From IMG/VR virus record IMGVR_UViG_3300025133_000085, positions 1 through 64,000 of that record: a stretch of 64,000 bases of DNA. One strand, given 5' to 3'. Position numbers and translations under genes: made by a program. Under the pieces are notes generated by a model. That model did not search any database. It saw nothing but the letters and a program-made list of their open reading frames with translations, and was not told where the DNA came from. Shown here in pieces: positions 2,606-22,755 of this stretch. Within the stretch, counting starts at the first letter, position 1; every line of letters begins with the position of its first letter. This stretch comes from a virus.

Positions 2606-3034
2606 TCACATATTTTCAGCGATGGTTGCCACTTCAACATAAAAGTTATATAACTCTTCAGCTGCGCCATATTCAATCGACCTAAGAGCGTCAGCTGCGT
2701 CGTACGCAGCAAGAAAGTTTGCTGGGCCGACCTGCTGCAGGACCGGTTCCATCGGTTCGCCTTCATATCCAGCCATTTCGACTTCTTTAATCGCCTTTTG
2801 CTGTGCAGGTGTCAAACTACTAAATGCATCGTTGAGATACTCAACCTCCGGATACTCTTCCGGGTCTAGATCCATAATTTGACCAATGCTGCCATACTCG
2901 AGGTACGGACTTTCATTTAGTCTACGTCTACCCCGACCCCACCGACGGTGGTTGGATCTGCGGCGCCTAGAGGGTCGAGTTCTTTTCATCTCTTCTTTGA
3001 TGATTCTTCTAAGCTGTCGTCTTGTAATTCTCAT
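2606..3034 (-). CDS. Class 1-tagged protein with Arg-rich segment
   Basis: A 142-residue protein. Residues 1-15 are the class 1 tag MRITRRQLRRIIKEE, then comes an extremely basic stretch of about 25 residues with runs of Arg (SRRRRSNHRRWGRGRRR), then LNE and an acidic, helical C-terminal domain. Both IKE (13-14) and LNE match the [I/L]xE cleavage consensus of T4-type prohead proteases, so cleavage could release a protamine-like peptide and a separate acidic domain. The tag and Arg-rich linker are shared with the genes at 9403 and 10771, but the C-terminal domains differ. Cellular role inferred: internal head protein. Confidence 0.75.
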   Translation of the reverse strand: MRITRRQLRRIIKEEMKRTRPSRRRRSNHRRWGRGRRRLNESPYLEYGSIGQIMDLDPEEYPEVEYLNDAFSSLTPAQQKAIKEVEMAGYEGEPMEPVLQQVGPANFLAAYDAADALRSIEYGAAEELYNFYVEVATIAENM

Positions 3035-3056
3035 GACGTCTATCTCCTAACGTGTT

Positions 3057-3064
3057 TATAAATA
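3057..3064 (-). promoter_or_regulatory. late-type promoter motif TATTTATA
   Basis: The minus strand reads CAGTATATTTATAAACACG 23 bases upstream of the ATG at 3034, followed by TTAGGAGA as ribosome-binding site. The same promoter-plus-leader sequence is repeated before the genes starting at 9804 and 11070. Confidence 0.5.
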
Positions 3065-3075
3065 TACTGATTCTA

Positions 3076-3131
3076 TTAATAAAACTGGGCAATGTCATAC
3101 CCACCTGTTTTTGGCTCCGTTACCGGTCGAG
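3076..3131 (-). pseudogene. Remnant of a GIY-YIG gene joined to a tagged-gene tail
   Basis: On the minus strand, right after the stop of the 3134-3469 gene, CACTCGACCGGTAACGGAGC translates as HSTGNGAK, matching the HSTGKGAKYTR core of the GIY-YIG proteins. It is followed by a stretch reading YDIAQFY, matching the C-terminus GSYGIAQSYW of the 9403-9804 gene. Neither fragment has a usable start. This is a recombination scar and is repeated at about 9846-9901. Confidence 0.55.
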
Positions 3132-3133: not shown

Positions 3134-3469
3134 TTATGCGTAGTCTCCATTAATCAACTTATCGGTGAATTCCTGCATCGTCTGCAACGCCATCTTTCGG
3201 ACCCTTACAGTTAGCTCCACTTCCATGTCCATCGATGCGGATTCGACCTGTTCTTCCCAAAACGCTTTTGCCTCAGCGGTGGGTGTGTCATCGGGTGCCA
3301 TGGACGGATCACCTATGTTGAATGCTTTCTTCTCCTGGTCCCTCCATTCATCGACTAGCGTCCCAACATTTGTCCAATCTACTCGAGGCCAGTGATGTGT
3401 GTTACTGTCAACAACAGGTTCAGTTGCTTCCCTGATAATTTTTCTTAACTGTCGTCTTGTAATTTTCAT
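3134..3469 (-). CDS. Class 1-tagged small protein (paralogue of 9904-10236)
   Basis: A 111-residue protein from ATG 3469. Tag MKITRRQLRKIIREA occupies residues 1-15 with IRE as the candidate cleavage site. The rest begins VVDSNTHHWPRVDWTNVGTL and is largely helical and acidic, ending LINGDYA. The mature part is almost identical at DNA level to the gene at 9904-10236, with only a handful of differences over about 300 bases. The first residues after the tag differ, as expected if tag and body recombine separately. No family recognised. Confidence 0.75.
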   Translation of the reverse strand: MKITRRQLRKIIREATEPVVDSNTHHWPRVDWTNVGTLVDEWRDQEKKAFNIGDPSMAPDDTPTAEAKAFWEEQVESASMDMEVELTVRVRKMALQTMQEFTDKLINGDYA

Positions 3470-3470: not shown

Positions 3471-3740
3471 TTAATATCCCTCAACATCAATAGTTAACAC
3501 GCCATCTTTCGAAAGTTTTGCAGTGAGTGTCTCTCCCCTGTCGATGATGTCAACCCCGGTTCCCCAATCCTGGATAGGGTCCATATCATGGTATGACAAT
3601 ACGCCCTCGACTGCTTGTAGAAGATTGGAGCCCAATACAACGTTGAAGTTCTTACCCTTCAATATCTCCAGCCCAGGCACCTGCATATCGGTATGTGCTT
3701 CCTTGATGATCCTTCTGAGTTGGCGCTTTGTGATCTTCAT
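3471..3740 (-). CDS. Class 1-tagged small protein (paralogue of 4017-4310)
   Basis: An 89-residue protein: tag MKITKRQLRRIIKEA, then a compact beta-rich domain with FNVVLGSNLLQAVEGV and the ending KLSKDGVLTIDVEGY. The protein at 4017-4310 has the same blocks (FNVVLGANLMTAIEGM and LSKDGVLTVDIQ), so the two are a local duplication. The body has no family I can name. Its gene is separated from the previous one by one base, consistent with translational coupling. Confidence 0.7.
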   Translation of the reverse strand: MKITKRQLRRIIKEAHTDMQVPGLEILKGKNFNVVLGSNLLQAVEGVLSYHDMDPIQDWGTGVDIIDRGETLTAKLSKDGVLTIDVEGY

Positions 3741-4009
3741 CTTAAATCTCCCACCGAACGATTGATATCATATATATCACGATAAATCACTTCAGCGTCT
3801 TCCAACGCCTCCAACGCATTCAGTAGGAGGTCCTTGATCCTACCACTGGCTTCCACATCAAGTTCTTTATAGGTGCCCATTTCAACAAATCCGGTCATGG
3901 CATTTATTTCCTGTATCCAACGTCGTAAGGAATAAGCCACGTGACCAGATTGTTGATACACCTTCTCTTCCTTGATGATTCTTCTGAGCTGGCGCTTTGT
4001 GATTCTCAC
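3737..4009 (-). CDS. Class 1-tagged small helical protein
   Basis: A 90-residue protein using the GTG at 4009, which places the tag (M/V)RITKRQLRRIIKEE at the N-terminus as in its neighbours. An upstream in-frame ATG at 4030 would add seven residues before the tag. The body is mostly alpha-helical (RRWIQEINAMTGFVEM, LLLNALEALEDAEV). It overlaps the next gene by four bases. Function unknown; packaging into the head is inferred from the tag. Confidence 0.65.
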   Translation of the reverse strand: MRITKRQLRRIIKEEKVYQQSGHVAYSLRRWIQEINAMTGFVEMGTYKELDVEASGRIKDLLLNALEALEDAEVIYRDIYDINRSVGDLR

Positions 4010-4016: not shown

Positions 4017-4310
4017 TCACTGAATATCAACAGTCAACACACCGTCTTTCGAAAGCGTTAGGGTCACCGTCTCTCCCATTTGGGTGTCGGCCACCTCGAG
4101 CTCTTCTCCGGCACTCCACTCATCATCGGGTTGTTCAGCCATGAAAGTTTGCATGCCCTCGATCGCAGTCATCAGGTTCGCCCCCAATACAACATTAAAA
4201 TCACTGGTTCCTGGTTTGTGCCCTTTCCACATACGAACAGCCCCAGGTATCTTATATGCCCCCGTTGCTTCCTTGATGATCCTTCTAAGCTGTCGTCTTG
4301 TGATTCTCAT
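4017..4310 (-). CDS. Class 1-tagged small protein (paralogue of 3471-3740)
   Basis: A 97-residue protein. Three consecutive ATG codons (4316, 4313, 4310) precede the tag; the third is chosen because AGGGA lies six bases upstream and because it begins the tag exactly (MRITRRQLRRIIKEA). The body shares the FNVVLGANL and LSKDGVLTVDI blocks with the neighbouring 3471-3740 gene but carries a longer acidic loop. The 4316 ATG overlaps the upstream stop (ATGA), so coupled initiation there is also possible. Confidence 0.7.
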   Translation of the reverse strand: MRITRRQLRRIIKEATGAYKIPGAVRMWKGHKPGTSDFNVVLGANLMTAIEGMQTFMAEQPDDEWSAGEELEVADTQMGETVTLTLSKDGVLTVDIQ

Positions 4311-4312: not shown

Positions 4313-4612
4313 TCATTCCCTGCTGCCAGTCTTCTGGTAATTCTCGGCGGCGTGCCATCCTTCCATATAATCCGGATTATCCGGCATCAAAGGCTCAGGC
4401 ACGAACTGTTCTCCTGCAAGCCAATCATCAAAACCACTATCGTAATCATTCTTGATAGGATCAGCCCAGAAATGCACTAATTCGCCATCAGGTCCAGTAT
4501 AATACTCGGCTTGTTTCGCCACATCATCACGCGGATCGGGGCCCATTTCTTTAAGAAGCTTTCGCTTCTCTTCCTTGATGATTCTCCTAAGCTGTCTCTT
4601 TGTAATTTTCAT
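4313..4612 (-). CDS. Class 1-tagged small acidic protein
   Basis: A 99-residue protein. Tag MKITKRQLRRIIKEEKRKLL is followed at once by a second candidate site, LKE (residues 20-22), giving two [I/L]xE sites eight residues apart. The same double arrangement is seen at 10236-10484 and 10538-10774. The body is acidic and aromatic, with DWLAGEQFVPEP and YMEGWHAAENYQ. No family recognised. Confidence 0.7.
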   Translation of the reverse strand: MKITKRQLRRIIKEEKRKLLKEMGPDPRDDVAKQAEYYTGPDGELVHFWADPIKNDYDSGFDDWLAGEQFVPEPLMPDNPDYMEGWHAAENYQKTGSRE

Positions 4613-4651: not shown

Positions 4652-4954
4652 TCACCACGGACCATACGTTTCTTCGTAGATCTTCTTATAAGCGAATTCC
4701 AGCGCGCTTTGAATGAAAGCCGCTTCCTTGTCGTCGTCGACCTCGAACTCGTCTTCCCACGCCGCCTGTTGACGAGACAAAAACTCTTTCATGAACTTGC
4801 GCCCCTCTGCACGACGGGCACTGTCAGCATCACGTTCCCACTCTTGGGACATGTTGGGGTGCCAACCAGGTCTATCCATGTCAGGTGGTGGATCGATCGT
4901 GTCCCGCCACGCTCCGCGAATCATCTCCCTCAGCTGTCTCTTTGTGAGCTTCAT
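4652..4954 (-). CDS. Class 1-tagged protein lacking the cleavage glutamate
   Basis: A 100-residue protein from the ATG at 4954, which overlaps the preceding stop as TGATG. The tag is MKLTKRQLREMIRGA; the position normally held by E in IKE/IRE is G, so this copy should not be cut at the usual site. The body is helical, charged and tryptophan-containing, with AEGRKFMKEFLSRQQAAWED. It may keep its tag permanently or be a decayed member. Function unknown. Confidence 0.65.
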   Translation of the reverse strand: MKLTKRQLREMIRGAWRDTIDPPPDMDRPGWHPNMSQEWERDADSARRAEGRKFMKEFLSRQQAAWEDEFEVDDDKEAAFIQSALEFAYKKIYEETYGPW

Positions 4955-5158: not shown

Positions 5159-5239
5159 TTACCCTACGTTGTGATCGACCTCGTTGAGCTTGGCGAGCTC
5201 ACGGATTAACTTTCTTAACTGTGCTGATCTAATTTTCAT
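5159..5239 (-). CDS. Stand-alone class 1 tag micro-ORF
   Basis: A 26-codon reading frame that begins MKIRSAQLRKLIREL and then has only eleven more residues before TAA. The ATG at 5239 overlaps the stop of the nuclease gene (ATGA), so translation is coupled. It carries the full tag with IRE but almost no cargo. Either a tagged gene that lost its body, or a deliberately made tag peptide. Three similar micro-ORFs exist at 11131, 16054 and 21584. Confidence 0.5.
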   Translation of the reverse strand: MKIRSAQLRKLIRELAKLNEVDHNVG

Positions 5240-6102
5240 TTTATCCCTCTTTTTTTCTCTTCGGTAAGTACATGCTGCACGAACCTGCGAAGTCTCTGTT
5301 CAAACTTGAGATCGATCCTTACTTTGCTTCCGTCGATTCGTAGGCCTGGAATTGTCATTTTGCCGGGAGGAATGTCTTTTACCGCTTCTTGATCACGCGA
5401 GGCTCTTTTTAATCTGGCGATAATGGCAGCCTGTAATGCGCGACCTAAATAGGGCGTACTGAGCTTCTTCATATCGCGCCTGGATATCTTTCCGCCCCCT
5501 GCTTGCGCGGCATTTATTACTTGCTCGAGATCATAATCGCCCGGTTCTCTTCTGGTTTTTTTGACGCCTCTTTTGATCTTAATCGCGTCAGCAGACGTTA
5601 TAACGTAGGTCTCGCCCAGGGCGCCCGCCTTTTGGTGCTCGAACAATACGTAAGCATCATATGCCGAAGACGGAGCCGACGCAGTGGGCCACGATTGAAA
5701 CTTATCCTGTGTGTACTTTACTTCGAGTCGTACCACTTCGATCTGCGGGTTAGGTTTGCCATCTTCGCTTGTGCCTCCCGTGCCCTTAAGAAGTAGGACG
5801 TCCGGAATGGATCCTGCTGCGTTATTCTTTGCGATCTCTTCTTGGGCAGAAGTAAGCCCTGCCTGCTTAATAGCTTTGTGAGATGCATGAACTGCCCTAA
5901 CAGCTGGGAAGTCTGGAGCGCCTTCAAACAACCCATCAAACATCGTTGCTAACTTATGTTCGGCGTCGATCGAAGACGACGCGTCGTTCGCAATTATGTC
6001 GAGATTGCGCTTAAGCTTTGCGGCGTCTATACCTGTTACGGCACTCAACCACTCCAGTCCGCGAGGAGAAAAGTCCTGTATGTTATCTCGTATGGTGCTC
6101 AT
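5236..6102 (-). CDS. PD-(D/E)xK-type nuclease with C-terminal tag
   Basis: A 288-residue protein. Around residues 98-130, IPDVLLL followed by EVVRLEVKYT gives the PD...ExK signature of the restriction-endonuclease fold, with QSW and a helix after it as usual. The extreme C-terminus, LRRFVQHVLTEEKK, matches the class 2 tag (LREYIRxLLxE) seen N-terminally in other genes, here with LTE as candidate cleavage site. I infer a DNA nuclease that may be carried in the virion. Its targets might be host or competitor DNA lacking the phage's base modification. No known restriction enzyme is recognised. Confidence 0.6.
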   Translation of the reverse strand: MSTIRDNIQDFSPRGLEWLSAVTGIDAAKLKRNLDIIANDASSSIDAEHKLATMFDGLFEGAPDFPAVRAVHASHKAIKQAGLTSAQEEIAKNNAAGSIPDVLLLKGTGGTSEDGKPNPQIEVVRLEVKYTQDKFQSWPTASAPSSAYDAYVLFEHQKAGALGETYVITSADAIKIKRGVKKTRREPGDYDLEQVINAAQAGGGKISRRDMKKLSTPYLGRALQAAIIARLKRASRDQEAVKDIPPGKMTIPGLRIDGSKVRIDLKFEQRLRRFVQHVLTEEKKRGIK

Positions 6103-9402: not shown

Positions 9403-9804
9403 CTACCAGTAAGACTGGGCAATACCATACGACCCAGCGACCCCACCCACGGAGTCGAACCAATCGTTGAGGAAGCCTTCGCCGATACCAGCATCCCCTA
9501 CCATCGTGACTTGGACCCAGTCTGTCTCGCCGGGCATACCCCACTCTCCCTGGAGGTCCTCAAGCGTGGCGTCTGTATCTTCCCAACTACCGGTCTCTTC
9601 GGACACACGCAGACCCTCTCGTCCCGCAGCGCTACTTAAGTCTGCTAGAAGTCGACCTGGAACGACAAGGCCCCACGTAACTTCCCCCGGACCCGCACGT
9701 TCCCGCAAGCGACGTCGCCTTCGCGAGGTGGGTCGGCGCCGACGCTTGGTGCGGTTGATCTCTTCCTTGATGATCCTCCTAAGCTGTCGTCTTGTGATTC
9801 TCAT
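9403..9804 (-). CDS. Class 1-tagged protein with Arg-rich segment
   Basis: A 133-residue protein. Tag MRITRRQLRRIIKEE, then a protamine-like segment (TKRRRRPTSRRRRR), then LRE as second candidate cleavage site, then a globular part with WGLVVPGRLLADLSS and WGMPGETDWVQVTM. It ends in glycine- and tyrosine-rich GGVAGSYGIAQSYW, a tail whose remnants lie at about 3076, 9846 and 11110. No family recognised. Confidence 0.75.
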   Translation of the reverse strand: MRITRRQLRRIIKEEINRTKRRRRPTSRRRRRLRERAGPGEVTWGLVVPGRLLADLSSAAGREGLRVSEETGSWEDTDATLEDLQGEWGMPGETDWVQVTMVGDAGIGEGFLNDWFDSVGGVAGSYGIAQSYW

Positions 9805-9903: not shown

Positions 9904-10236
9904 TTATGCGTAGTCTCCGTTAATCAACTTATCGGTGAATTCCTGCATCGTCTGCAACGCTAGCTTTCGGATCCTTACGGTTAGCTCCACTTCCATGTCC
10001 ATCGATGCGGATTCGACCTGTTCTTCCCAAAACGCTTTTGCCTCAGCGGTGGGTGTGTCATCGGGTGCCATGGACGGATCACCTGTGTCGAATGCTTTCT
10101 CCTCCTGGTCCCTCCATTCATCGACTAGCGTCCCAACATTTGTCCAATCCACTCGAGGCCAATGATGAGTGTTGCTGTCAACAGATTCAACCTCTTGCAA
10201 GATGATCCTTCTAAGCTGTCGTCTTGTGATTTTCAC
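9904..10236 (-). CDS. Class 1-tagged small protein (paralogue of 3134-3469)
   Basis: A 110-residue protein with a GTG start at 10236 that overlaps the upstream stop as TAGTG. Tag (M)KITRRQLRRIILQE has LQE as candidate site in place of IKE. The body from VDSNTHHWPRVDWTNVG onward is nearly the same as the 3134-3469 protein. Differences cluster around the tag junction. Confidence 0.75.
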   Translation of the reverse strand: MKITRRQLRRIILQEVESVDSNTHHWPRVDWTNVGTLVDEWRDQEEKAFDTGDPSMAPDDTPTAEAKAFWEEQVESASMDMEVELTVRIRKLALQTMQEFTDKLINGDYA

Positions 10237-10484
10237 TATTCCTCTTCAGCCGCATATTGTGCTGCGGCTTGCACCCCTGCAAACATGGCATCAACAAGGT
10301 TATAAAGTTCACCCTTAAGCACATCTTCCGGAATATCATATCCCATGTTTTCATCAAGTATCATGATATATTCCTCCAACGCATCGTTGAGACGCTCTTC
10401 AGCACCCTGCAACGAACCTTCGCTTAGAAGCTTTCGCTTCTCTTCTTTGATAATTCTTCTAAGCTGTCGTCTGGTGATTCTCAT
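10236..10484 (-). CDS. Class 1-tagged small helical protein
   Basis: An 82-residue protein: tag MRITRRQLRRIIKEE, then KRKLLSEG with LSE as second candidate site, then a helical acidic body (AEERLNDALEEYIMILDENM) ending in AAAQYAAEEE. The first 23 residues resemble the 4313-4612 protein, but the body is unrelated, an example of tag and body exchange. Confidence 0.7.
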   Translation of the reverse strand: MRITRRQLRRIIKEEKRKLLSEGSLQGAEERLNDALEEYIMILDENMGYDIPEDVLKGELYNLVDAMFAGVQAAAQYAAEEE

Positions 10485-10537: not shown

Positions 10538-10774
10538 CTATGTGACCCAGGGAGAGGTGCTCGGTGCGGAGTCTTCCACGTCGTCGGCCAACGAGCGAAG
10601 TTCGTTCGCCAGCTCGAGGGTGTCGATACCCTGGGTGAGCATTTGATCGATGACGCGGTTGAGGACGAGCCACAGGTTCTCACCAGTCTTGGGATCGCGG
10701 AAGCCGTCGGTCTCTCGAAGCTTTTGCTTCTCTTCCTTGACGATTCTTCTGAGTTGGCGCTTTGTAATTCTCAC
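10538..10774 (-). CDS. Class 1-tagged small acidic protein
   Basis: A 78-residue protein from the GTG at 10774, which overlaps the preceding TGA (GTGA). Tag (M)RITKRQLRRIVKEE, then KQKLRET with LRE as second site. The body is helical and acidic (TLELANELRSLADDVED) and ends APSTSPWVT. An upstream in-frame ATG at 10804 would add ten residues inside the previous gene and is less likely. Confidence 0.65.
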   Translation of the reverse strand: MRITKRQLRRIVKEEKQKLRETDGFRDPKTGENLWLVLNRVIDQMLTQGIDTLELANELRSLADDVEDSAPSTSPWVT

Positions 10775-11130: not shown

Positions 11131-11211
11131 TCATACGACCCAGCAAGTTCGCCTGGTGCGGTTGAGCTCTTCCTTGACGATTCTTCTAAGCTGTCGCTTT
11201 GTGATCTTCAT
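11131..11211 (-). CDS. Stand-alone class 1 tag micro-ORF (decayed tagged gene)
   Basis: A 26-codon frame from ATG 11211 (ATGA overlap with the previous gene), beginning MKITKRQLRRIVKEE and ending NRTRRTCWVV. In another frame the following DNA encodes AGSYDIT, matching the tail GVAGSYGIAQ of the 9403 gene. This one therefore looks like an internal deletion derivative of a 9403-type gene, leaving a tag-only peptide. Confidence 0.5.
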   Translation of the reverse strand: MKITKRQLRRIVKEELNRTRRTCWVV

Positions 11212-13437: not shown

Positions 13438-16067
13438 AATCCACTCGAGGTTTCGAGGTCCCACGGACCCCAGTGTTTGTAGTCTAATAGTTTCTTCCGC
13501 ACCTCGGGCCACGTGTAACGATGTACGTTTTGTCCACCCACAGGATCGTAACCACCCCCGCCAAAAGTCTCGCGGTTAATTTGTCCCAATGCGTAATAGA
13601 CAACTTTGGGCATCCTGAGATCTTTACCGTTTGACTTGTCGATCACGGTGTCGCCATCCTCGACCCAAGCGTGACCGTACCGAACACCCTCTAAGGGACC
13701 CTGGCCACCCACTTCGCCGTGGACGAGAACGATATCGCAATCGTCGGCACCGAAATTACACTCATCCATCATATACTTGGCGGCAGCTTCGTAACAATCG
13801 CCTAACTGTGCGCCCTCTTTAAGCACCGATTCTGTCATTCGCGAACTAAAGAGTTTGATGTATGTGTAAAGCTTAGACCTAAATTTCTTAAGCGTAGGAC
13901 TAGTCGCAGGTAGTTGTTCGAAATAATGTCGTAACGCATTGGGTAAGTCGGGATCCGATAAATCCACCTCTCCCCGAATTGCATCGAGCGCGCCCTCCTT
14001 TCCGTAAACCGCGATCAATTCCTCGGCACCATCGTGAGCGTGTGCGTCGATCTCGATGTGGGAATTCAAATAATCCCTAACGTCGCTCGAGTCTTTAGAC
14101 GGAATCTGCTTCGGGTCGTTTATCATTTCCTCGAATGCCGCCGTGTCATCGAGTCCCTTATTCAGCGCCTGCTTTTTCATCTGTTGGTAATGCACCAGCT
14201 CGTGTCGCACGGTCTGCGTGATGTGTCTTACGAGCGCAGCGGGATCCAAGTCGTTCGGATCGAATTCATCACCTAGTGGCATCGTTTGTAAGTCTATCAC
14301 GTTTCGACCCGGGTCTTGCTTCGAAACGTACCACCGCGCATCGATTAACCACCTGTTAGGATAAGCTGGGTGATTTGGGTTTAGCGTATAGGCCGGGTCG
14401 TCGGATTCAAAAGAACTCACGTAAACGTCCATGTCTAATCCGAGTTCGGCAAATACACCACCCAATGCGAATTCCAAAGTCGCCGCGGCGGGAGTTTGTA
14501 ATGATTCACCATCGCCTTGAATGTCGATATCATCGTAGTCGTTTGACTCCTCCCAAAACCTAGATTCCTCCACGGCTCCATCGATTTTCTCGAAATACTC
14601 GTCGGGTAAGACCGTCGCCTCGCCTAAGAGCACTCTCTGCACATACTCTTTCATTAGCTCCACGTCGAGAACGCCCGACGTATCGCCCAAGATCCATTCC
14701 CGCGAGAAATCATCGATGTCGGTAATGTCTATTATGAACGTATCACGTGATAGCGTGCCAAGATATTCTTGGTAAGCCTTGTCTATTTTTCTCAACGTCA
14801 CGGGATCCAGATGGCGCGCCAGTGTTGGATGCATGTCCATCCGATTCAGGATTGGGTATTCCTCGAGCTCGTCCCAAGAGTGAGTCGTGTCATCCTTACC
14901 CGCCTGATACATCGCGTACAATCCATCAACCGCGCCCAGGGCGCCACCGACGATCGGGATCTCGCCCATCGCTACCTTCGCAAACTCTACGCCAACGTTT
15001 TTGATTCGAGTAGCCAAACCCCCTCTATCCGTTTCGTCCTGGAGCCTCTGGATCAAATCGAGAACCTGTCCCACGGTTTTCAAATGGCGAGGGTGACGTT
15101 CGTTTTCTGGTGATATGTCCTCGAATTCCCTAAGAAGTCTGCCCTCGTCCAGCCACGCATCTCGCTTACGCATCGTCGCGTACAGCTCTTCATTCCATGG
15201 ACCCTCGCCACCATACTTGGCGCAATTATTTAGAACCTCTTCTGCGGTGTATTCATTTTGGGGATCGGGTTGATACATGTCGTAGTAGAACTCGCGGGCG
15301 ATTCCATCCGGCTTGGTATACTTGGTCTGATCGTCGAAGACCAGATCGCCCATCTCGACCCACCCGTGCACGATTGGCTTGGGGGGATCCTTCCACTTGT
15401 CCGTCACGATACCGTGGACAACCTTGAACTTGCTCTTATCGTTTAGATCCGGGTGTCTCTTGGGACGGCGACCCGGACCACCCTTTGTGAAATGTGCCTC
15501 GAACCACTCCTCAGCTTTTTGATACGCGAAAGGAAAGCACCTACCCAAAGCGAGCACGTTCTCTTCCACCAAAAGCTCCCGTACGTACTCACGAAGTGAT
15601 CCTTCGTTCATGGACTTTTCCTCGATGGGTTTCGCGAGGTGCTTTTGAAGGTGTGCCATCAGCTCATTGTGATCCGCGGGCGGTGCGTCGTAACGAGCTT
15701 CGTACTCTTGGCTATGAATGTCTGCCGCACTCGTCTCCCCCTTTTGCTTGAGCAAATTGTAACCTAACCAATCGGCTTCGCGCTCTATGGCTTCATCTCG
15801 GGCTGCATGAGCATCGCCGGCATGTCCGGCCATGTAATGTCCGGCCTCATGTGCTTGGATCACTAGAAGGTGGTCTGGAGTGAACCATGACTGACCGACT
15901 GCGCCTCCATCCACAACCATCATGTTATGATCGTGTAGAAGAAACGCATGACCCGATTTCTCAAACTGCTTCGAAAGAAGGGCGTAACGCTCGGACTCCG
16001 GGTAAATGATTACGACGGTAAGCTCGGGAAGTATCTCGCTTTGGTATACTTGTTCAGAGTCGCTCAC
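13434..16067 (-). CDS. Multi-enzyme polyprotein with internal tags
   Basis: About 877 residues from GTG 16067 (GAGG six bases upstream; an in-frame GTG at 16079 lacks a site). Module 1 has HEAGH (about 73-77) and a downstream EADWLGYNLL helix: zinc metalloprotease. A tag, SLREYVRELLVE (157-168), leads to module 2 with Cys177 and HGWVEMGD (His234): papain/NlpC-like hydrolase. LLREFE (311-316) precedes module 3, which has a glycine-rich hydrophobic stretch (PIVGGALGAV). ELMKEYVQRVLLGE (470-483) precedes module 4 with HELVHYQQ (622-626): second metalloprotease. SVLKEG precedes module 5 with DCYEAA (Cys758) and GHAWVEDGD (His799): second papain-like hydrolase. Every junction has an LxE site. I infer cleavage into separate internal proteins in the prohead. 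Confidence 0.75.
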   Translation of the reverse strand: MSDSEQVYQSEILPELTVVIIYPESERYALLSKQFEKSGHAFLLHDHNMMVVDGGAVGQSWFTPDHLLVIQAHEAGHYMAGHAGDAHAARDEAIEREADWLGYNLLKQKGETSAADIHSQEYEARYDAPPADHNELMAHLQKHLAKPIEEKSMNEGSLREYVRELLVEENVLALGRCFPFAYQKAEEWFEAHFTKGGPGRRPKRHPDLNDKSKFKVVHGIVTDKWKDPPKPIVHGWVEMGDLVFDDQTKYTKPDGIAREFYYDMYQPDPQNEYTAEEVLNNCAKYGGEGPWNEELYATMRKRDAWLDEGRLLREFEDISPENERHPRHLKTVGQVLDLIQRLQDETDRGGLATRIKNVGVEFAKVAMGEIPIVGGALGAVDGLYAMYQAGKDDTTHSWDELEEYPILNRMDMHPTLARHLDPVTLRKIDKAYQEYLGTLSRDTFIIDITDIDDFSREWILGDTSGVLDVELMKEYVQRVLLGEATVLPDEYFEKIDGAVEESRFWEESNDYDDIDIQGDGESLQTPAAATLEFALGGVFAELGLDMDVYVSSFESDDPAYTLNPNHPAYPNRWLIDARWYVSKQDPGRNVIDLQTMPLGDEFDPNDLDPAALVRHITQTVRHELVHYQQMKKQALNKGLDDTAAFEEMINDPKQIPSKDSSDVRDYLNSHIEIDAHAHDGAEELIAVYGKEGALDAIRGEVDLSDPDLPNALRHYFEQLPATSPTLKKFRSKLYTYIKLFSSRMTESVLKEGAQLGDCYEAAAKYMMDECNFGADDCDIVLVHGEVGGQGPLEGVRYGHAWVEDGDTVIDKSNGKDLRMPKVVYYALGQINRETFGGGGYDPVGGQNVHRYTWPEVRKKLLDYKHWGPWDLETSSGL

Positions 16068-16116
16068 CTGACACCTCACTTAAAACGTCTCTTATGTATT
16101 GTCGCAAGATACCCAT
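16054..16116 (-). CDS. Class 2 tag micro-ORF overlapping the polyprotein start
   Basis: Twenty codons, MGILRQYIRDVLSEVSGERL, then TGA. The ATG overlaps the previous stop as TGATG, so initiation is coupled. It encodes a complete class 2 tag (LSE site) in a frame one base off from the metalloprotease module that follows. A +1 shift at the end would fuse tag and enzyme: the last codons are CGA CTC TGA, preceded by AGGTGAG, an arrangement like the prfB frameshift site (SD-like, three bases, CTT TGA). It could equally be a base-level indel, or a separate peptide. Confidence 0.5.
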   Translation of the reverse strand: MGILRQYIRDVLSEVSGERL

Positions 16117-16715
16117 CACACGGTTCCTACCAACGTCTTTAGGTGAGTCGCACCATCGCCGTACTGTCGTTTGTACCAGCCTCTACCTTCGCTTCCCGGA
16201 CGCTCACCGACCCACTCCAGATCCCGCTGGACCAACCCCCTCACTTTCGCTTCGTCTTCTATGATGGTCACGCCTGCGGCCATGGCTATCTGCGCGATGC
16301 GACCCGATACCTCGGCAAACGTGCCGGGTCGTTTTAGAAGTTCGATAAAACGGGAAACGCTCACGCGTTTGCCTGCGCCACCATCGTGACCCAACCCTCC
16401 GACTTTGAGGGCGCCGCCCCGGGTCTTTCCGAAAACCACAGCATCCGGTTCCGGGTCGGCATCGATATCGACGGCATCGAAGAAAGTGTACTTTCCAGGA
16501 ATATCTTGGGCCGATTGTATCTTTACGTTACCACCCGGGAGACTGGCGTATGCGGTGGTCACCAAGTCGAAGACTTCATCGTCCAAACCAGTTTCCTGGG
16601 ATCGCATCGCTAGGTCTTCGGGCGATACGTCAACCCACTGCCCCTTTGGCACACCAAAGTCGGCGAAAGTCTTTTCGGCCAACAGCCGTCTTATGTACTC
16701 ACGTAGAAGATTCAT
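16116..16715 (-). CDS. Class 2-tagged protein of unknown fold
   Basis: A 199-residue protein from ATG 16715 (ATGA overlap). Tag MNLLREYIRRLLAEK with LAE site. The body contains DIDADPEPDAVVFGKTRGG and a C-terminal IAQIAMAAGVTIIEDEA helix-strand that resembles the end of acetyltransferase-like folds, and a basic end. A similar AMAFGVPIYDA end occurs in the neighbour at 16712-17566, so the two may share a domain. Not assigned. Confidence 0.65.
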   Translation of the reverse strand: MNLLREYIRRLLAEKTFADFGVPKGQWVDVSPEDLAMRSQETGLDDEVFDLVTTAYASLPGGNVKIQSAQDIPGKYTFFDAVDIDADPEPDAVVFGKTRGGALKVGGLGHDGGAGKRVSVSRFIELLKRPGTFAEVSGRIAQIAMAAGVTIIEDEAKVRGLVQRDLEWVGERPGSEGRGWYKRQYGDGATHLKTLVGTV

Positions 16716-17566
16716 TCTGGACTCCATAACACTTTGCGTCTCGCATCATAAATTGGAACGCCAAAAGCCATGGCGACTCTAAACATCTCTTTTGTCACGC
16801 CGACGGATCTCCCGCCTGGGGGAGACCAGGTCGCGGCGTGCCTCACAGACTTTGCGAGATCGACCAAGGCTATGACTCCGACGGCCTTCCAGTTATCTAC
16901 CAACGCTTCGTTAACGACGACCCCACCCTCGGGCGGTTTCCACGTCGATTGATCGAGAACGTAAGGGATGTTTCTTGCCATCTTCTCACCAAACTCAGTA
17001 TCAGGTTTAAGATTCCCGTACCTGCTATAATCCTTTGAGATCGTGGGAAGCTTGTTAACGCCCGAAGATCTTGCCCTACGCTCCTGCCCTTCTCCCTCCT
17101 CACCGGTAGCGCCCATATAATCCCCCCACTTCCCAGTGTATATCTCATCTTGGTTGTTAGCCGCCAGCGAAATATGCCCTTTTACCCAAAGCCCCGCGGG
17201 AAACCCCACGATGCTCCTCAACCTCTCGTCAGGTAAACTCATGGTCGTTGAAAGCTCGTCCTTTCCCCTACCGATGAGATCACTCAGCGCGTAGGGATCT
17301 TGGACCCAATGCACCGTATCAAGCGTCGATAACCACTGATGATCTGCGTTTGCATTGAAGGCACGCTTTATCGCTTTGCCCCCGCCCTTACCGGGATCGC
17401 CGCCGAAAAACATTCCCCCCTCTTCGCCGAACTCACCCGACGTCGCCGCGAGATCCTGAACGAATCCCATGGGGTCTTCAGTCAACAACCGTCTTATGTA
17501 CTCGCGGAGAAGCACATCCTCCGAATACCCTTTTTTACCTTCATAAACGGTTTCGGCATCACTCAC
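16712..17566 (-). CDS. Class 2-tagged protein of unknown fold
   Basis: A 284-residue protein with a GTG start directly after the upstream TAA. A 17-residue lead (MSDAETVYEGKKGYSED) comes before the tag VLLREYIRRLLTED. The body is glycine-rich near residues 45-65 and ends in a compact alpha/beta segment (VVVNEALVDNWKAVGVIALV, FRVAMAFGVPIYDARRKVLW). No family recognised. An internal start at the tag itself (GTG with GGAGG two bases upstream) is possible but poorly spaced. Confidence 0.65.
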   Translation of the reverse strand: MSDAETVYEGKKGYSEDVLLREYIRRLLTEDPMGFVQDLAATSGEFGEEGGMFFGGDPGKGGGKAIKRAFNANADHQWLSTLDTVHWVQDPYALSDLIGRGKDELSTTMSLPDERLRSIVGFPAGLWVKGHISLAANNQDEIYTGKWGDYMGATGEEGEGQERRARSSGVNKLPTISKDYSRYGNLKPDTEFGEKMARNIPYVLDQSTWKPPEGGVVVNEALVDNWKAVGVIALVDLAKSVRHAATWSPPGGRSVGVTKEMFRVAMAFGVPIYDARRKVLWSPE

Positions 17567-18253
17567 TTAACACCCCCCAGGCGATGTCGACGGAGAGCAC
17601 CGCACCCATCTACCTACCTTCTTGAGGGCTTCTATCTTGGGAGTGCCTTTCGATCGATACATTTTCGTACGTGGGCTCTTCAATAGAGCTTCCTTACCTC
17701 GTGGATCCCACGCAAATCCGCCACCGTAGCGCCAATACAAACCGTCACGGTCATCCATGTACGCATTCTTTTGATCACAGTTGTCTGACGGTTCACCGGG
17801 GGTGAGACGATCATCCGAATCGTCAAGCTGAATGATCTCTACATCCGGGCGACGATTTGCGTAATATTTCCACACACGGAACGCATCATCAGAAACGCTG
17901 AGCCTATCGGCCATGATACCCGAACCCTTGCTTGTCGCTAGTTCCATAGCAAGATCATAGAGGAGTGGCCCATAACCCGAGGCCTCCTCGGCATTTGACC
18001 ATACCACCTCATATGCATCCAAACATCCCAGCCCTCGACTGGCGGGGGGGTTTTCAGCGGCAATTACACCAATTGAAGAATAGGGCAAACGAGCTTTCCC
18101 GAGGGCGGGACGAGGGTCATTTTTATATAGCTTTATCTCAAACGAGGACGCGTCCTCGGAGACCACAACGTAATACCTAGCTTTCAGGACATCTTCTACG
18201 CCCATAGCCCTTTCGGTAAGGAGCTCTCTTATGTACTCGCGTAGAAGATTCAT
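17567..18253 (-). CDS. Class 2-tagged GNAT-like protein
   Basis: A 228-residue protein, tag MNLLREYIRELLTERA (LTE). Residues 95-140 (SGYGPLLYDLAMELATSKGS, then SDDAFRVWKYYANRRPDV) look like the acetyl-CoA-binding core of an N-acetyltransferase: glycine loop, long helix and a Vx-W-Y helix. A paralogue lies at 18942-19607 with the same LLYD(L/V)AMEYAT core and a shared C-terminal KLxxLG ending. GNATs transfer acetyl groups to small molecules or proteins; a virion-delivered one could modify host proteins. Confidence 0.65.
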   Translation of the reverse strand: MNLLREYIRELLTERAMGVEDVLKARYYVVVSEDASSFEIKLYKNDPRPALGKARLPYSSIGVIAAENPPASRGLGCLDAYEVVWSNAEEASGYGPLLYDLAMELATSKGSGIMADRLSVSDDAFRVWKYYANRRPDVEIIQLDDSDDRLTPGEPSDNCDQKNAYMDDRDGLYWRYGGGFAWDPRGKEALLKSPRTKMYRSKGTPKIEALKKVGRWVRCSPSTSPGGC

Positions 18254-18945
18254 TTCTTAAGCCTCTCAATATCTTGCTTTCTAGCGTTAACCTGAACTGC
18301 GGTGACGGTGCAATCTCCAAAAAGCAATATCTCTCTTTCAGATCCTCCTTGAGGGTTTAGCTTTCTAATATCGAATTCGTCACGATACCTGCCACCCTTA
18401 AATCTAGCAAATGAATATGTGTACATGAAATAACCGGAATCGCAATCAGAATGTAATATCACTGGAACTGTGTCTGACGACCACTGCGTAGTAAAGCGCC
18501 TTGCGGCCTTCCAACTGTTTGTCCACGAACTAACGTTTCCGAATTTACCTTCTGACTTATATGTCATAGGCGTTATTGGCACAGGTGGTCCCCAGTCTAG
18601 TATGTCCTTGAACTCAGTCGGTAAATTCTCTAAAGCTTCCGGTGCATATTTTTCTAGCCAGGAAACTGGAAGCCTCATTCCCCTGAGGATCGGGCCAGAC
18701 TTACATGGAGAAAATACATCTGAATATTGTCCTGAGTCTAAAATCTGTTGCAACGCAGATATCGCGGAGGTGCTCAATGGGGCTATGGCGCCAAAGTGAT
18801 TATGAAGTTGTCGATACAACATTTCTTCTATGTCTGTGTCTGGCTCTTTGGGCCACGTATCTCCAGCAGCAGTAGGCCACACCCACTTGCCGAGCACATC
18901 CTCTTCATTCAATATTCCTCTTATGTATTCGCGAAGCAACCTCAT
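18250..18945 (-). CDS. Class 2-tagged ADP-ribosyltransferase (Alt-like role)
   Basis: A 231-residue protein. Tag MRLLREYIRGILNEED with LNE. The three parts of the R-S-E class of mono-ADP-ribosyltransferases are visible: Arg88 in LRGMRLP, the SSW(T) motif at 139-141 with a helix containing KAARRFT, and ExE at 203-205 in SEREILLFGDC. The E-x-E points to arginine as acceptor. T4 Alt, the classic analogue, is packed in the head, cut by the prohead protease at an LxE-type site and modifies host RNA polymerase after injection. This gene has both the tag and the fold for that job; the target is unknown. Confidence 0.72.
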   Translation of the reverse strand: MRLLREYIRGILNEEDVLGKWVWPTAAGDTWPKEPDTDIEEMLYRQLHNHFGAIAPLSTSAISALQQILDSGQYSDVFSPCKSGPILRGMRLPVSWLEKYAPEALENLPTEFKDILDWGPPVPITPMTYKSEGKFGNVSSWTNSWKAARRFTTQWSSDTVPVILHSDCDSGYFMYTYSFARFKGGRYRDEFDIRKLNPQGGSEREILLFGDCTVTAVQVNARKQDIERLKK

Positions 18946-19607
18946 AACTTCACCAACTTTCCAAGTGACTTCAGTTTTTCGATCGTGGTCGGTGGTTTCG
19001 TGTATCGTTTACTCAACGCAGAATCAACCCAATTCACGTCCACCTTCCCACTCGCATCATATTTGTATGGTTCGTATGGTCGACGCGCTACTTTTTGATC
19101 ACAGTTGTCTTCCTCCTGTGGGGTAAGCGTGTTTCCTAAGTCATCCAGTTGATGTGCTGTAACATCGCTTCGATTGTTAAGATAATAATCCCAAACTCGA
19201 CGAGCATCCGCGGAGACGATGCTTCTGTCTGCAATCAAACCGCCCCCTTTCATCGTTGCGTACTCCATCGCAACATCGTATAACAACGGTCCCCAACCAC
19301 TGGGATGTGCTTCGGACCCTATCACAACACCGGCTCCGTCACACTTGCCTAGGTCACCCATCCCTCCATATGTCCCACCTCCTATTGCTTCATAGGGACC
19401 GATCCAGCCAACCTCAACATTACCGTGCATACCAACGGGGTAGTAAGGATCGCCGGCCATCACCGTCGGGTCATCTGTGATACCGTAATAGGTGTAAAAC
19501 CCTTCCCCACTCGTCTGTATGACGACGTTCACCTCATCTGGTAAGTCTTGTGGTCCTTTGGCGACCTCGGTTAACAACCGTCTTATGTATTCACGGAGAA
19601 GTTTCAT
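18942..19607 (-). CDS. Class 2-tagged GNAT-like protein (paralogue)
   Basis: A 221-residue protein from ATG 19607 (ATGA overlap). Tag MKLLREYIRRLLTEVA (LTE). The core SGWGPLLYDVAMEYATMKGG and ARRVWDYYLNNRSDVTAHQL match the 17567-18253 protein. Its mid region is glycine-rich (EAIGGGTYGGMGDLGKC). Expected to be an acetyltransferase relative; substrate not known. Confidence 0.65.
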   Translation of the reverse strand: MKLLREYIRRLLTEVAKGPQDLPDEVNVVIQTSGEGFYTYYGITDDPTVMAGDPYYPVGMHGNVEVGWIGPYEAIGGGTYGGMGDLGKCDGAGVVIGSEAHPSGWGPLLYDVAMEYATMKGGGLIADRSIVSADARRVWDYYLNNRSDVTAHQLDDLGNTLTPQEEDNCDQKVARRPYEPYKYDASGKVDVNWVDSALSKRYTKPPTTIEKLKSLGKLVKL

Positions 19608-19981
19608 GCTTCGAATCGATCCACGACCAAGGGCGTGAGCTTTTTGCGAACCGGGCGAATCGATGAAGCAAGGTCTTCCAGAGACTCTCCATCCAAAACA
19701 TGTTGGTGCCAACCCCTAATGACGCCAGGAATTTTTACTATGAACGGATACCGACTCTCCTTGTCCAGCGATATCGCTTCCTCGGCAAGGGCCTCGCACT
19801 TCATTAGGTGCTTATTGATGCAATCATGACATTGCATGTCCGGTTGATTTAGGTGGTCCTCGAGGAGAGTAAACTCCTTGCACATCTCCCTCATGTTGAA
19901 GAGGGGATCCATTATCGGTTGCATGGCCGTTTCTTCGCCACATTCCAGCAACACTCTTATGTACTCACGTAACAACCTCAT
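19604..19981 (-). CDS. Class 2-tagged small cysteine-containing protein
   Basis: A 125-residue protein with tag MRLLREYIRVLLECG (LLE). The body is helical and has four cysteines in MCKEFTLL and QCHDCINKHLMKC (CHDC looks like half of a zinc site). The C-terminus is amphipathic (SLEDLASSIRPVRKKLTPL). No family recognised. Overlaps both neighbours by ATGA. Confidence 0.6.
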   Translation of the reverse strand: MRLLREYIRVLLECGEETAMQPIMDPLFNMREMCKEFTLLEDHLNQPDMQCHDCINKHLMKCEALAEEAISLDKESRYPFIVKIPGVIRGWHQHVLDGESLEDLASSIRPVRKKLTPLVVDRFEA

Positions 19982-20679
19982 AACCCCATTCCTTCAAGTT
20001 GCTTAATCGTCCCATCGCTATCACCTGGTAGATGATGGATCGCGATTCCACCTGCAGCTCGCCAAGCAGCCACATTCTTCGTGTGGTCGTCGATGAGTAA
20101 GTTGGGAACGCCTCCGCGCATCGCGTATCGCGCTTTTTTGTCTGCCGAACTTCCATCAACGTCGGCCTGGACCACGATTATTTCTGATGGTGGTGGGGAA
20201 AGGTGCGTGCCGATCCATTCGATCTTACCGTCCTTAGACGTCGAGCCCGCGCCCGGACGCGCTCTCACCGCCGCAGTTAGAATGTTGACGACGTGATCCG
20301 TAGAATTTATGAATGGCCAAAGTTGGCCGACGCCATCAGCCAAAGCCGGTAGGTTCGCAAACGCCGGACCAGGGGCGGCGCCAATCGTCGAAAGCATCAA
20401 CGATCGAATCGACCGTATGTTTATGTCATTTTTTGTTCGGGCGCGGAAATCCGGTCCCACTTCTCTCTGCGCTTTGCGCAACCTCTTGCGGTGACCCTTC
20501 GTCGCCTCGGAGTAGGGAGGCTCACCACCCGCGAGCATGTCGTTAATGATGGGGATGATGCCTGCGACGAAGTCCGCGATGACTCCATCCATGTCGCAAA
20601 ATATCTGCGCGTTAGGTTGGAGGACCGGCGCGTCCTCTGCTTCTAATACTTCCCTGATATATGTCCTTAAAGTCGTCAT
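19978..20679 (-). CDS. Class 2-tagged HAD nucleotidase-like protein
   Basis: A 233-residue protein from ATG 20679. Tag MTTLRTYIREVLEAED. Motif I is IFCDMDGVIADF (about 25-36), motif II is FINSTDHVV, and motif IV is NLLIDDHTKNVAAWRAAGG with GIAIHH after it. This is the pattern of 5'(3')-deoxyribonucleotidase-type HADs (NT5C family), which dephosphorylate nucleoside monophosphates. A tagged, virion-packed version could act on host nucleotide pools early in infection; this is inferred. Confidence 0.7.
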   Translation of the reverse strand: MTTLRTYIREVLEAEDAPVLQPNAQIFCDMDGVIADFVAGIIPIINDMLAGGEPPYSEATKGHRKRLRKAQREVGPDFRARTKNDINIRSIRSLMLSTIGAAPGPAFANLPALADGVGQLWPFINSTDHVVNILTAAVRARPGAGSTSKDGKIEWIGTHLSPPPSEIIVVQADVDGSSADKKARYAMRGGVPNLLIDDHTKNVAAWRAAGGIAIHHLPGDSDGTIKQLEGMGL

Positions 20680-21584
20680 CTCAAAACCTCCTCGATATAC
20701 CCCTTTAATTGTATCGAACCGGATTCGATTGTTTCGAAATCCCATAGTTCGAAGTAGTTCGACATTACTGCTTCTCCACCGTCCGGGTTCACCGCAATGG
20801 TTATATGAGGAAAGGCCGGTCCATTCATTGGTATAGGTAGTCCACCCATGTCGACCAATCCCGTTACAACCTTATCATTTCTAGCGATCGCCACGACGCT
20901 CATCCTACCTGCGTCGTCGGAGAAGTCGAGCCAGTGCAAAGGTAACCGTCGCTTTTGCTCGGGCGGACTGATCAATGTCATGTGATGTGCTTTGGGCGTC
21001 CATCCCGGAGGTGCGTACTCCAATAAAGCATCGCGAACGCTCGCGTCGAGGATGAAAGCAGTGTACTCGATCCCCTCGACGACGCCGAGATCAGCTTCAA
21101 CCAAAAGTCTTCTTACGTAGCGCCTTAGAAAAGACTCATTCTGGCTGGCGCCCCCCACCGCCCGACCAATGGCTTCCAGCGCCCCGACGTCTGACATTTG
21201 GTGACTCTCACCACACGTAGCCAGTTCGGCGCCCTGAATCTGTTCGCTGTCCCGAAACGGAACTATATCATCGGTGGCGCAGTGTATAACGATAGTGTTG
21301 GGAGGAACAGAAGGCTGAAGACCGAAGTGCTTCCAGGCCGGAGCGATTAAGATTAGGCGAGCCCCTCTAGGGTTGAGCGCCATGGCCACCGCGCCACCCC
21401 GACTGGATCCGACGACGATATCCGGACTCTCCAGGTCGACCTCGTCCTGCGCTATTTGGACGGAGGCCTCGAAGTCGTCCCGTGGAAGGAGCGGGTTGAG
21501 AACAGTGTATCCTAAGCTTCGAAGGTACAATACCTTAGACCCGCCAGGTTTCGATTCCAAACCGTGTAAGAACAAAATCTTCAT
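20676..21584 (-). CDS. Alpha/beta hydrolase plus 2H phosphoesterase with internal tag
   Basis: A 302-residue two-domain protein. Residues 1-130 are an alpha/beta hydrolase: MKILFLHGLES start, the nucleophile elbow in VVGSSRGGAV, an acidic DDIVPF turn, similar to YqiA-like esterases. Next comes an internal class 2 tag, FLRRYVRRLLVEAD (about 148-158, LVE). The rest has two HxT motifs, HHMTLI (about 200) and PHITIAV (about 259), the mark of 2H phosphoesterases, which cut cyclic phosphodiesters. Phage 2H enzymes include the anti-CBASS protein Acb1. Cleavage after LVE would free the two enzymes. ATG 21584 overlaps the upstream micro-ORF stop (TAATG). Confidence 0.7.
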   Translation of the reverse strand: MKILFLHGLESKPGGSKVLYLRSLGYTVLNPLLPRDDFEASVQIAQDEVDLESPDIVVGSSRGGAVAMALNPRGARLILIAPAWKHFGLQPSVPPNTIVIHCATDDIVPFRDSEQIQGAELATCGESHQMSDVGALEAIGRAVGGASQNESFLRRYVRRLLVEADLGVVEGIEYTAFILDASVRDALLEYAPPGWTPKAHHMTLISPPEQKRRLPLHWLDFSDDAGRMSVVAIARNDKVVTGLVDMGGLPIPMNGPAFPHITIAVNPDGGEAVMSNYFELWDFETIESGSIQLKGYIEEVLR

Positions 21585-21640
21585 TATAACTCGACACCTT
21601 CGCAAAGAGTGGCGCTTATGTATTGCCGCAAGCGTTTCAT
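21584..21640 (-). CDS. Stand-alone class 2 tag micro-ORF
   Basis: Eighteen codons, MKRLRQYISATLCEGVEL, then TAA. ATG 21640 overlaps the previous stop (TAATG) and the TAA overlaps the next ATG in the same way. It encodes the class 2 tag (LCE as site) directly before an enzyme that lacks an N-terminal tag. The frame differs from that of the enzyme and I see no slippery sequence. As at 16054, the tag appears detached from its cargo. Confidence 0.5.
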   Translation of the reverse strand: MKRLRQYISATLCEGVEL

Positions 21641-22755
21641 TAGAAGTTCCTCGCTCCTACCACGCTAACATTGGGATATTTCTCGGCCATCTTATCTTTT
21701 AGGTGACCGACTTCCTTTCGCATCATCTTACCAAAGTGAATCGTAACCCCGGGCTTGGCGTGTCGATTGAAAAACTCATCTACCAGTTGGCTCGCGTATC
21801 CCTTGCCTCGCATATCCCCGCGGGTTTTCAAATAATCGATGTACCAATAATCATCGCCCGCCGTATGATAATCCAAGAATCCCACGACACAGATGTCAGC
21901 AACGCCTGGAATAATCTCGTCGAGTACTTTCTTCTTTAGCATCCGACCGGTCTTTGACCGTCTGCGCCACCTTTCAATTTCTGCGAAATATGTGTCATGC
22001 TTACGTGCTGGTTCGGTTACGTTGCTATCACATAATGCCAGTCGTTTAATATTACCTGCGCGACTATACTGCAATGGAGAATCGACCTCCCGGAATTCGA
22101 CGCCCTCGTGGAGAACGCCTCTCACAAATCTACGTAGGTTTTCTTCCACGTCGCCGAGCTCTCTTGCAAGTTTCATCTGTATTTCCATTTCCTTCTCTGT
22201 AGCCCTACCACTCTCACCCCAATCCGGCATATCGGAATCAAGGCATGCCTGGGAATCGATTTCGTAATCTGCCCCCTTTTTCAGAAAACTCAATGCCCTG
22301 ATATGATCCTTGCCGTCGCCTTTTCCCCTAACCGCCTTCAGGGAAATGCCCGCATCAGAGGCAACCTGACACGCTTGTCGCAAAGGCACGATATTATCGC
22401 CATCCGAGTGAACCGCCTTGCTTCCCGCTGGTAGATCTGGTACGGGCGCGGACGTCCATTTTCTCAGTGATGCTGGGGAGATGTACGTAACCGGAGGCAC
22501 TTCGTCCGCGATACCAGGCTCGTCGGATAGCATTTGGTTCAAAACGGCGGCGCCTCTACTAAAAGCAACGAGTTCATTCGGTTCCTCGTCCTCGAGCCAC
22601 TCGATCGCTGCTTCGATGTCCTCTGGCGTAACGTTTTCTTTGTCGCTAAACTTCGGTCCTCGTAACCCTATCTTGTCCGGACCGAACTTGTACCCATGAA
22701 ACGCATGCGTCTCTTCGTTAATAACTTGCCTTACAAACTTTCGTAAACCTTTCAT
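21640..22755 (-). CDS. Two-domain protein: hydrolase-like and GNAT, each with a tag
   Basis: A 371-residue protein from ATG 22755 (AGGGG eight bases upstream). First tag MKGLRKFVRQVINEET (INE). Domain 1 (about 20-175) has the alpha/beta-hydrolase pattern LVAFSRGAAV, YISP and HSDGDNIVP, but the tag sits at the N-terminus. The second tag, ENLRRFVRGVLHEGV (LHE), precedes domain 2, a GNAT: ICVVGFLDYH, then YIDYLKTRGDMRGKGYASQ (the acetyl-CoA loop R-x-x-G-x-G/A) and an end in YPNVSVVGARNF. Expected to be cut into two internal enzymes. Confidence 0.7.
   Translation of the reverse strand: MKGLRKFVRQVINEETHAFHGYKFGPDKIGLRGPKFSDKENVTPEDIEAAIEWLEDEEPNELVAFSRGAAVLNQMLSDEPGIADEVPPVTYISPASLRKWTSAPVPDLPAGSKAVHSDGDNIVPLRQACQVASDAGISLKAVRGKGDGKDHIRALSFLKKGADYEIDSQACLDSDMPDWGESGRATEKEMEIQMKLARELGDVEENLRRFVRGVLHEGVEFREVDSPLQYSRAGNIKRLALCDSNVTEPARKHDTYFAEIERWRRRSKTGRMLKKKVLDEIIPGVADICVVGFLDYHTAGDDYWYIDYLKTRGDMRGKGYASQLVDEFFNRHAKPGVTIHFGKMMRKEVGHLKDKMAEKYPNVSVVGARNF

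Follow-up and report, generated by a model that had tools for sequence, protein, structure and literature searches.

The window, which is the whole 64,000-nucleotide stretch analysed here and part of a 70-kb fragment, carries two families of short peptide tags on its minus strand (Table 1). The class 1 consensus is MKITKRQLRRIIKE, with glutamate as residue 14 when numbered from the tag methionine. The class 1 pattern had 15 matches, all on the minus strand between 3.0 and 12.3 kb and none in any other reading frame, while its exact DNA form had 12 matches against 0.00 expected from 100 dinucleotide shuffles. These counts confirm the tag family that the earlier note had described in about 15 small proteins; the tags are real, although one of the 15 matches is an orphan with an early stop. 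An extra class 1 tag lies at 64639, just beyond the window edge. Among the loci fetched by the tag pattern, 245 of 253 tags stood immediately at the start codon.

The second proposed family was likewise recovered. The class 2 pattern matched 13 times, at 5.3 and 14.6-22.7 kb, and its strict DNA form 5 times against 0.00 expected. As in class 1, the glutamate of the example tag MNLLREYIRRLLTE is residue 14 from the tag methionine. At 5.2 kb, where a class 2 tag had been placed at the start of a protein or between domains, the motif is present but located at the protein C terminus. Both classes had also been said to end at the same place in [I/L]xE. When the final tag residues were left free, so that glutamate was not imposed, three genomes had E14 in 18/18, 32/32, and 13/16 of their class 1 tags, the three exceptions belonging to the studied record itself, and [ILVMF]xE was present in 51 of 52 class 2 tags. 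Both classes share E14, but those three class 1 tags lack it and the glutamate of some class 2 tags comes one residue earlier.

Table 1. Tagged genes and tags of the window.
Feature	Position	Strand	Tag and remarks
Class 1 tagged protein	2606..3034	-	Tag 2993-3034
Class 1 tagged protein	3134..3469	-	Tag 3428-3469; paralogue of 9904-10236
Class 1 tagged protein	3471..3740	-	Tag 3699-3740
Class 1 tagged protein	3737..4009	-	Tag 3968-4009
Class 1 tagged protein	4017..4310	-	Tag 4269-4310
Class 1 tagged protein	4313..4612	-	Tag 4571-4612
Degenerate class 1 tag	4652..4954	-	MKLTKRQLREMIRG at 4954, without E14
288-aa protein	5236..6102	-	Class 2 motif QRLRRFVQHVLTEEKKRGIK at C terminus
Class 1 tagged protein	9403..9804	-	Tag 9763-9804
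Class 1 tagged protein	9904..10236	-	Tag MKITRRQLRRIILQE, E is residue 15
Class 1 tagged protein	10236..10484	-	Tag 10443-10484
Class 1 tagged protein	10538..10774	-	Tag 10733-10774
Class 1 tagged protein	10771..11070	-	Tag 11029-11070
Orphan class 1 tag	11170..11211	-	Stop 26 codons after tag start
Class 1 tagged protein	11208..11681	-	Tag 11640-11681
Class 1 tagged protein	11684..11965	-	Tag 11924-11965
Class 1 tagged protein	11970..12260	-	Tag 12219-12260; second tag-like stretch LTYKQLRRMIREV at C terminus
881-aa multidomain protein	13434..16079	-	Internal class 2 tags 15564-15602, 14619-14657
Weaker tag (MTESVLKE) in 881-aa protein 13434..16079	13815-13838	-	
Class 2 tagged protein	16116..16727	-	Tag 16674-16715
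Class 2 tagged protein	16712..17566	-	Tag 17477-17512
Class 2 tagged protein	17567..18253	-	Tag 18212-18253; paralogue of 18942-19607
Class 2 tagged ADP-ribosyltransferase-like protein	18250..18945	-	Tag 18904-18945
Class 2 tagged protein	18942..19607	-	Tag 19566-19607
Class 2 tagged protein	19604..19981	-	Tag 19943-19981
Class 2 tagged NT5C/HAD-like protein	19978..20679	-	Tag 20641-20679
Hydrolase-like domain and second domain	20676..21605	-	Class 2 tag between, 21096-21131
Hydrolase-like domain and GNAT-like domain	21640..22755	-	Class 2 tag 22714-22755 ahead of the first domain; internal class 2 tag 22105-22143 between the two

Several unlike domains are joined in one polypeptide in the window proteins of 881 aa and 392 aa and in a relative of 923 aa. 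The domains that follow the tags of the 881-aa protein are separate proteins in relatives, and internal-tag domains occur elsewhere as stand-alone tagged proteins; thus, some of the cargo resembles a tag-punctuated polyprotein. Pfam and PHROGs assigned few functions to class 2 cargo, and for 21643-22758 AlphaFold gave only a poor model (pLDDT 49.7), which was left out of the conclusions. For the ADP-ribosyltransferase (ART)-like protein (18250-18945), the best structural matches of the predicted model (pTM 0.59) were Arr and Tpt1 (Z 7.9-7.0), with mostly ART enzymes lower down. Foldseek returned nothing with an E value below 0.001 for this model, and the sequence had no match in the PDB. Of the R, S-T-S-like, and E-x-E residues expected of an ART fold, RGxR and SSWT are kept where aligned, and E-x-E is found in the two complete members.

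The statement that the window lacks a prohead protease holds and extends to the entire 70-kb record, across which neither an S77 protease nor gp23 was found and which has no head genes. Two ClpP-like genes, at 659-1261 and at 7352-7960, are similar to PHROGs termed "head maturation protease". We rejected them as the head protease, as they match the Clp protease family, are duplicated, and lie outside a head module, and we consider S77 the better candidate. Of the 23 tagged records, 16 had both the S77 (gp21-type) prohead protease, at about 33.1-33.7 kb in G014:C1, and gp23, and the other seven, including the studied record, had neither. In the genome studied, both genes would be expected past the right end of the 70-kb record. 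Lack of a prohead protease in the genome had been named as evidence that would count against capsid targeting; among the relatives, every gp23-bearing tagged record has S77. These co-occurrences are not independent events, because the tagged records are mutually related, and the control set fetched with ribonucleotide reductase consisted mostly of fragments and close kin and so gave no clean S77 background rate. Conversely, the protease does not require the class 1 tag, which was absent in some S77-bearing kin (G027, G029, and G032).

The gp23 precursors of tagged phages carry L[RK]E ahead of the mature domain, the counterpart of FLTE↓A in T4. Between the protease and the scaffold lie two conserved small genes with tag-like N termini resembling class 1, and these took the top ranks when 697 ORFs were scored against the cargo tag. 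The scoring relied on a smoothed matrix, as the HMM of the tag proved too sharp to detect distant matches. In one relative (G002), tagged genes directly follow gp23. The T4-type targeting reading is thus supported, and the likeness of class 1 to the N termini of small core genes beside the protease is a link that the earlier note did not contain. The core-gene likeness was scored by rank, without a calibrated E value; single HMM E values were 0.008 and above.

With considerable confidence, we interpret both tags as capsid-targeting sequences (CTSs) cleaved by a gp21-type protease to free cargo in the head, although docking, cleavage, packaging, and injection are all inferred, with no virion proteomics or cleavage data behind them. 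The 14-residue amphipathic segment (MKITKRQLRRIIKE or MxLLREYIRxLLxE) would dock cargo on the scaffolding core as a T4-type prohead forms, probably through mimicry of the N termini of the two small proteins whose genes lie next to that of the protease. The S77 protease would then cleave [I/L]-x-E behind its glutamate, leaving mature cargo free inside the head, where DNA would be packaged alongside it, and the cargo would exit with the DNA on infection. At an inter-domain tag, the same cleavage would split a polyprotein into separate proteins within the capsid. Most likely, the tags let unrelated small proteins and enzymes enter the head and reach bacteria with the DNA. The fuller proposal, in which enzyme strings punctuated by core-derived tags are cut by the protease into effectors in the virion and, together with dozens of singly tagged small proteins, make up a modular system of cargo whose tags can be exchanged, is one for which we see about even chances. 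That the cargo is an injected arsenal is suggested only by analogy with T4 Alt and internal proteins and by the types of domain in the cargo; roles in anti-defence or host takeover are inferred.

The tags could also dock cargo on the prohead core and remain uncut, the glutamate being kept for the docking helix alone. The resemblance to core-gene N termini favors docking itself, and targeting and processing are separable in T4 (PMC9026906). However, the conserved I/L12 and E14 make up the exact gp21-type motif, a site of matching type precedes the mature capsid protein, and S77 is present, so we regard the uncut variant as improbable.

Targeting followed by cleavage has its closest counterpart in the CTSs of T4 IPI-III and Alt (PMC9026906, PMC3012670), where a short N-terminal segment is likewise common to otherwise unrelated small proteins. 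The T4 protease is specific for L/I-X-E (PMC9026906), and this L/I-x-E end is common to both systems, as are a gp21-type protease and a gp23 capsid in the respective phages. An ADP-ribosyltransferase-like cargo recalls Alt, although the protein here is only ART-like on a model of pTM 0.59. The T4 CTS differs in having 10 residues (PMC9026906) rather than 14. A handful of T4 proteins are tagged, compared with about 15-33 class 1 tagged proteins per genome read here, where in addition there are two exchangeable classes, tags also stand between domains, and the tag resembles head-core gene N termini. There is no detectable kinship between T4 MKTYQEFIAE and the tags, which agree only in the final hydrophobic-[IL]-x-E pattern, and a relaxed class 1 pattern had no match in T4. 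The best reading is that the tags work as T4 CTSs do without detectable sequence kinship. No class 1 tag was found in T4 or in the named isolates whose capsids are closest (Mel-JY01, immuto, and RM378), and none emerged when Mel-JY01 N termini were clustered. A tblastn search of named phages with the tag peptide, a very short query, and a literature search with the tag letters also gave no match.

In the ejection proteins of phiKZ-type giant phages (SPN3US; PMC5694885, PMC10052503), a gp21-related protease similarly processes head cargo after glutamate, but there the sites are A-x-E and the propeptides are mostly longer than 100 residues and found on a few proteins, whereas here I/L-x-E ends a 14-residue tag in many. 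Polyvalent proteins (PMC5512222) likewise combine unlike enzymes in multidomain phage polypeptides and are presumed to be injected; their release is ascribed to embedded peptidase domains, in contrast to the repeated [IL]xE tag at domain junctions that we propose is read by the prohead protease. The internal tags suggest polyprotein processing inside the capsid, of which we found no description in the literature searched. Phage head contents are normally known only through proteomics of cultured phage, and a 14-residue signature on dozens of unrelated proteins, both small ones and enzymes, would yield a cargo list from sequence for widespread uncultured large T4-like phages. The cargo, most of which is uncharacterized, offers candidates for proteins of anti-defence and host takeover; in T4, restriction enzymes of type IV are blocked by Ip1, Ip2, and Ip3 (PMC12373910). 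The resemblance of the tag to the N termini of core genes also suggests a possible origin of capsid-targeting sequences.

The two classes are interchangeable on a given cargo. The class 2 protein at 19604..19981 has a homologue in L079 (67.7% identical) that carries a class 1 tag, and its counterpart in L065 is internal; the tag class on a single cargo can thus differ between phages. An alternative is that the tags send cargo elsewhere than to the head, for instance to phage DNA, a replication compartment, or host RNA polymerase. Phages have addressing peptides of other kinds, and class 1 tags have a strongly basic character. Yet class 2 is far less basic on homologous cargo, and a non-head address leaves unexplained the tag-like N termini in the head module, the tagged genes by gp23, and [I/L]xE; we give it only a slim chance.

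Tag codons showed a pN/pS of 0.19-0.24 with nearly saturated synonymous sites, both in the window and in other genomes, while the flanks were random and cargo DNA past the tag was similar only at random level. The near saturation and random flanks point to selection on the protein level. Recent copies of DNA cassettes or recombination hot spots without protein function, to which a 6.7-kb tandem duplication in the window and 35-60 bp of DNA similarity around several tags might point, are contradicted by this codon analysis, in which amino acids are kept, and by the swapping of two dissimilar tag sequences on the same cargo, and are hardly tenable. The duplication is diverged, pairing 0.05-3.5 kb with 6.5-10.2 kb at 74-92% identity, so some class 1 genes are not independent of one another; past the tags, relatedness of cargo was detectable in only two pairs within the window.

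Our scan of the window (1-64000 of a 70,437-bp IMG/VR virus record) bore out the tag positions proposed in the earlier note, with 15 class 1 and 13 class 2 matches at the expected places, all on the minus strand. The corresponding DNA forms gave 12 class 1 and five class 2 matches, and none in 100 dinucleotide shuffles. A loosened form of the class 1 pattern gave up to 28 matches per genome in a set of 18 genomes or records, in which its reversed version gave none. One class 1 tag is an orphan that soon runs into a stop codon, perhaps the remnant of a tagged gene. Tag-like stretches also occur at the C terminus of two window proteins; for T4 Alt, C-terminal processing has likewise been reported (PMC9026906).

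Because several searches had the final glutamate built in, we retested it with the last tag residues left free. Glutamate at residue 14, counted from the tag's Met, was present in 95% of 462 class 1 tags, a set partly enriched by the pattern used to fetch the loci, and residue 12 was I or V in 99% of them. In sequences read through, the glutamate was found in 18/18 tags of one related phage (G010), 32/32 of another (most of G011), and 13/16 of the window's own record. For class 2, [ILVMF]xE stood at the expected position in 51 of 52 strict N-terminal tags.

Within each genome, 60-75% of synonymous sites differed among the tags, with few non-synonymous differences; pN/pS was 0.19-0.24 in four genomes and 0.44 in G028, an S77-bearing relative. 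Similarity of the DNA upstream of the tags and in the cargo was at the random level of 25-30%. Selection on the tag works at the protein level. In the window, copies were also added by a diverged tandem duplication of ~6.7 kb (74-92% identity), which takes in some of the tagged genes together with ClpP-like and GIY-YIG-like ones. Beyond the tag, window cargo was recognisably related in two pairs only. Each of the two ClpP-like protease genes adjoins a cluster of genes with class 1 tags.

In tagged phages, the capsid precursors carry [VIL]L[RK]E immediately N-terminal of the mature domain, the counterpart of FLTE|A in T4 gp23. T4 gp21 cleaves after L/I-X-E, and positions 4 and 7 of the T4 targeting sequence are important for targeting, positions 8 and 10 for processing (PMC9026906). 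Set side by side with the T4 N termini (MKTYQEFIAE in IPII and IPIII, MAKINELLRE in gp24), tags and capsid precursors show the same ending: a hydrophobic residue, I or L, any residue, E.

The head modules examined contain small genes with tag-like N termini between the S77 protease and scaffold genes, one family starting like MAKISKTALKGLIKECLVEILQE and a second containing KLTPALLRKLVLQEK. A matrix built from cargo tags was applied to every one of the 697 ORFs at 14 head loci; the top 31 were exclusively tagged cargo near head genes and these two families, some members of which were recognised by eye. The related phage G002 has five tagged genes behind its capsid gene. By inference, a core-docking segment is what the tag mimics or derives from. 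The tags are very probably best explained by targeting to the capsid and subsequent cleavage by S77, with docking, cutting, packaging, and injection not shown. The tags would function like the T4 targeting sequence, to which no sequence kinship was found when tested. The novelty lies in the scale, in two tag classes that can replace each other, in the resemblance to N termini of core genes, and in tags at internal positions.

Exchange is seen in a class 2 window protein 67.7% identical to a protein bearing a class 1 tag, and in four more cargo families. Domains behind internal tags in the window are separate tagged proteins in relatives, and the same class 2 protein has an internal position in another locus. 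In a relative's 923-aa chain, DUF192, poly(A)-polymerase, GNAT-like, and PAP2 domains follow in succession, and tag-like LxE stretches lie where they meet (order by inspection; families as seen in the relatives' cargo set).

Coordinates of features in the window, its record, and loci of relatives (L-numbers)
Feature	Window or record	Relative
Tandem duplication	0.05-3.5 kb; 6.5-10.2 kb	
ClpP-like genes	659-1261; 7352-7960	
C-terminal tag-like stretches (proteins)	5236-6102; 11970-12260	
Orphan class 1 tag	11170-11211	
Class 2 protein, internal in relative	19604-19981	L065:9708-11159
Protein, second half matching	21640-22755	L163:6131-6655
881-aa protein, part matching		L062:391-1200
GroEL-like gene	27902-29500	
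TadE-like protein	63029-63520	
978-aa protein (record)	67237-70173	
Tandem gp23 genes, G003		L170:11269-15150
Tandem gp23 genes, G001		L178:11110-14965

In IMG/VR, at least 119 stretches carried tags, many in records of 180-293 kb; cellular genomes (84,980 species) yielded nine matching stretches on six contigs. Since one of these contigs, NHDW01000006.1 (305,838 bp, Methylococcaceae MAG; loci L306, L311-L313), holds many tags and an S77 protease, it is probably a large phage genome within the bin. S77 was present in 16 of 23 tagged records and gp23 in the identical 16; neither was found in the remaining seven, the window's record included, all ≤104 kb. The 978-aa protein of the window's record is 47% identical to one of the phage G014, which shows the kinship of the window. 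In G014, S77 and gp23 lie ~29 kb and ~24 kb upstream of the homologue's gene on the same strand; if this order is kept, the head genes absent from the window's record would sit just past its right end. Among S77-bearing kin, G028 has variant tags (KITKRKLRQIIKEE) and some lack a class 1 match, so the tag marks some, not all, lineages with S77. Two large phage records each have two tandem gp23 genes.

Class 1 tags in the window sit on small, mostly acidic cargo (61-140 aa after the tag, pI 4.1-6.7). Among the larger cargo are an ADP-ribosyltransferase-like protein (T4 Alt, too, is a packaged ADP-ribosyltransferase) and proteins that weakly match hydrolases, GNAT acetyltransferases, and 5'-nucleotidases; relatives add zeta-toxin, RNase T, M23, L,D-transpeptidase, SLT, and repeat families. 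By eye, the window also encodes a GroEL-like (HSP60) chaperonin and a protein with a TadE-like N terminus (RGSHAVEFALLFPVFLTLVFGGIDYL), the latter unexpected for a phage.
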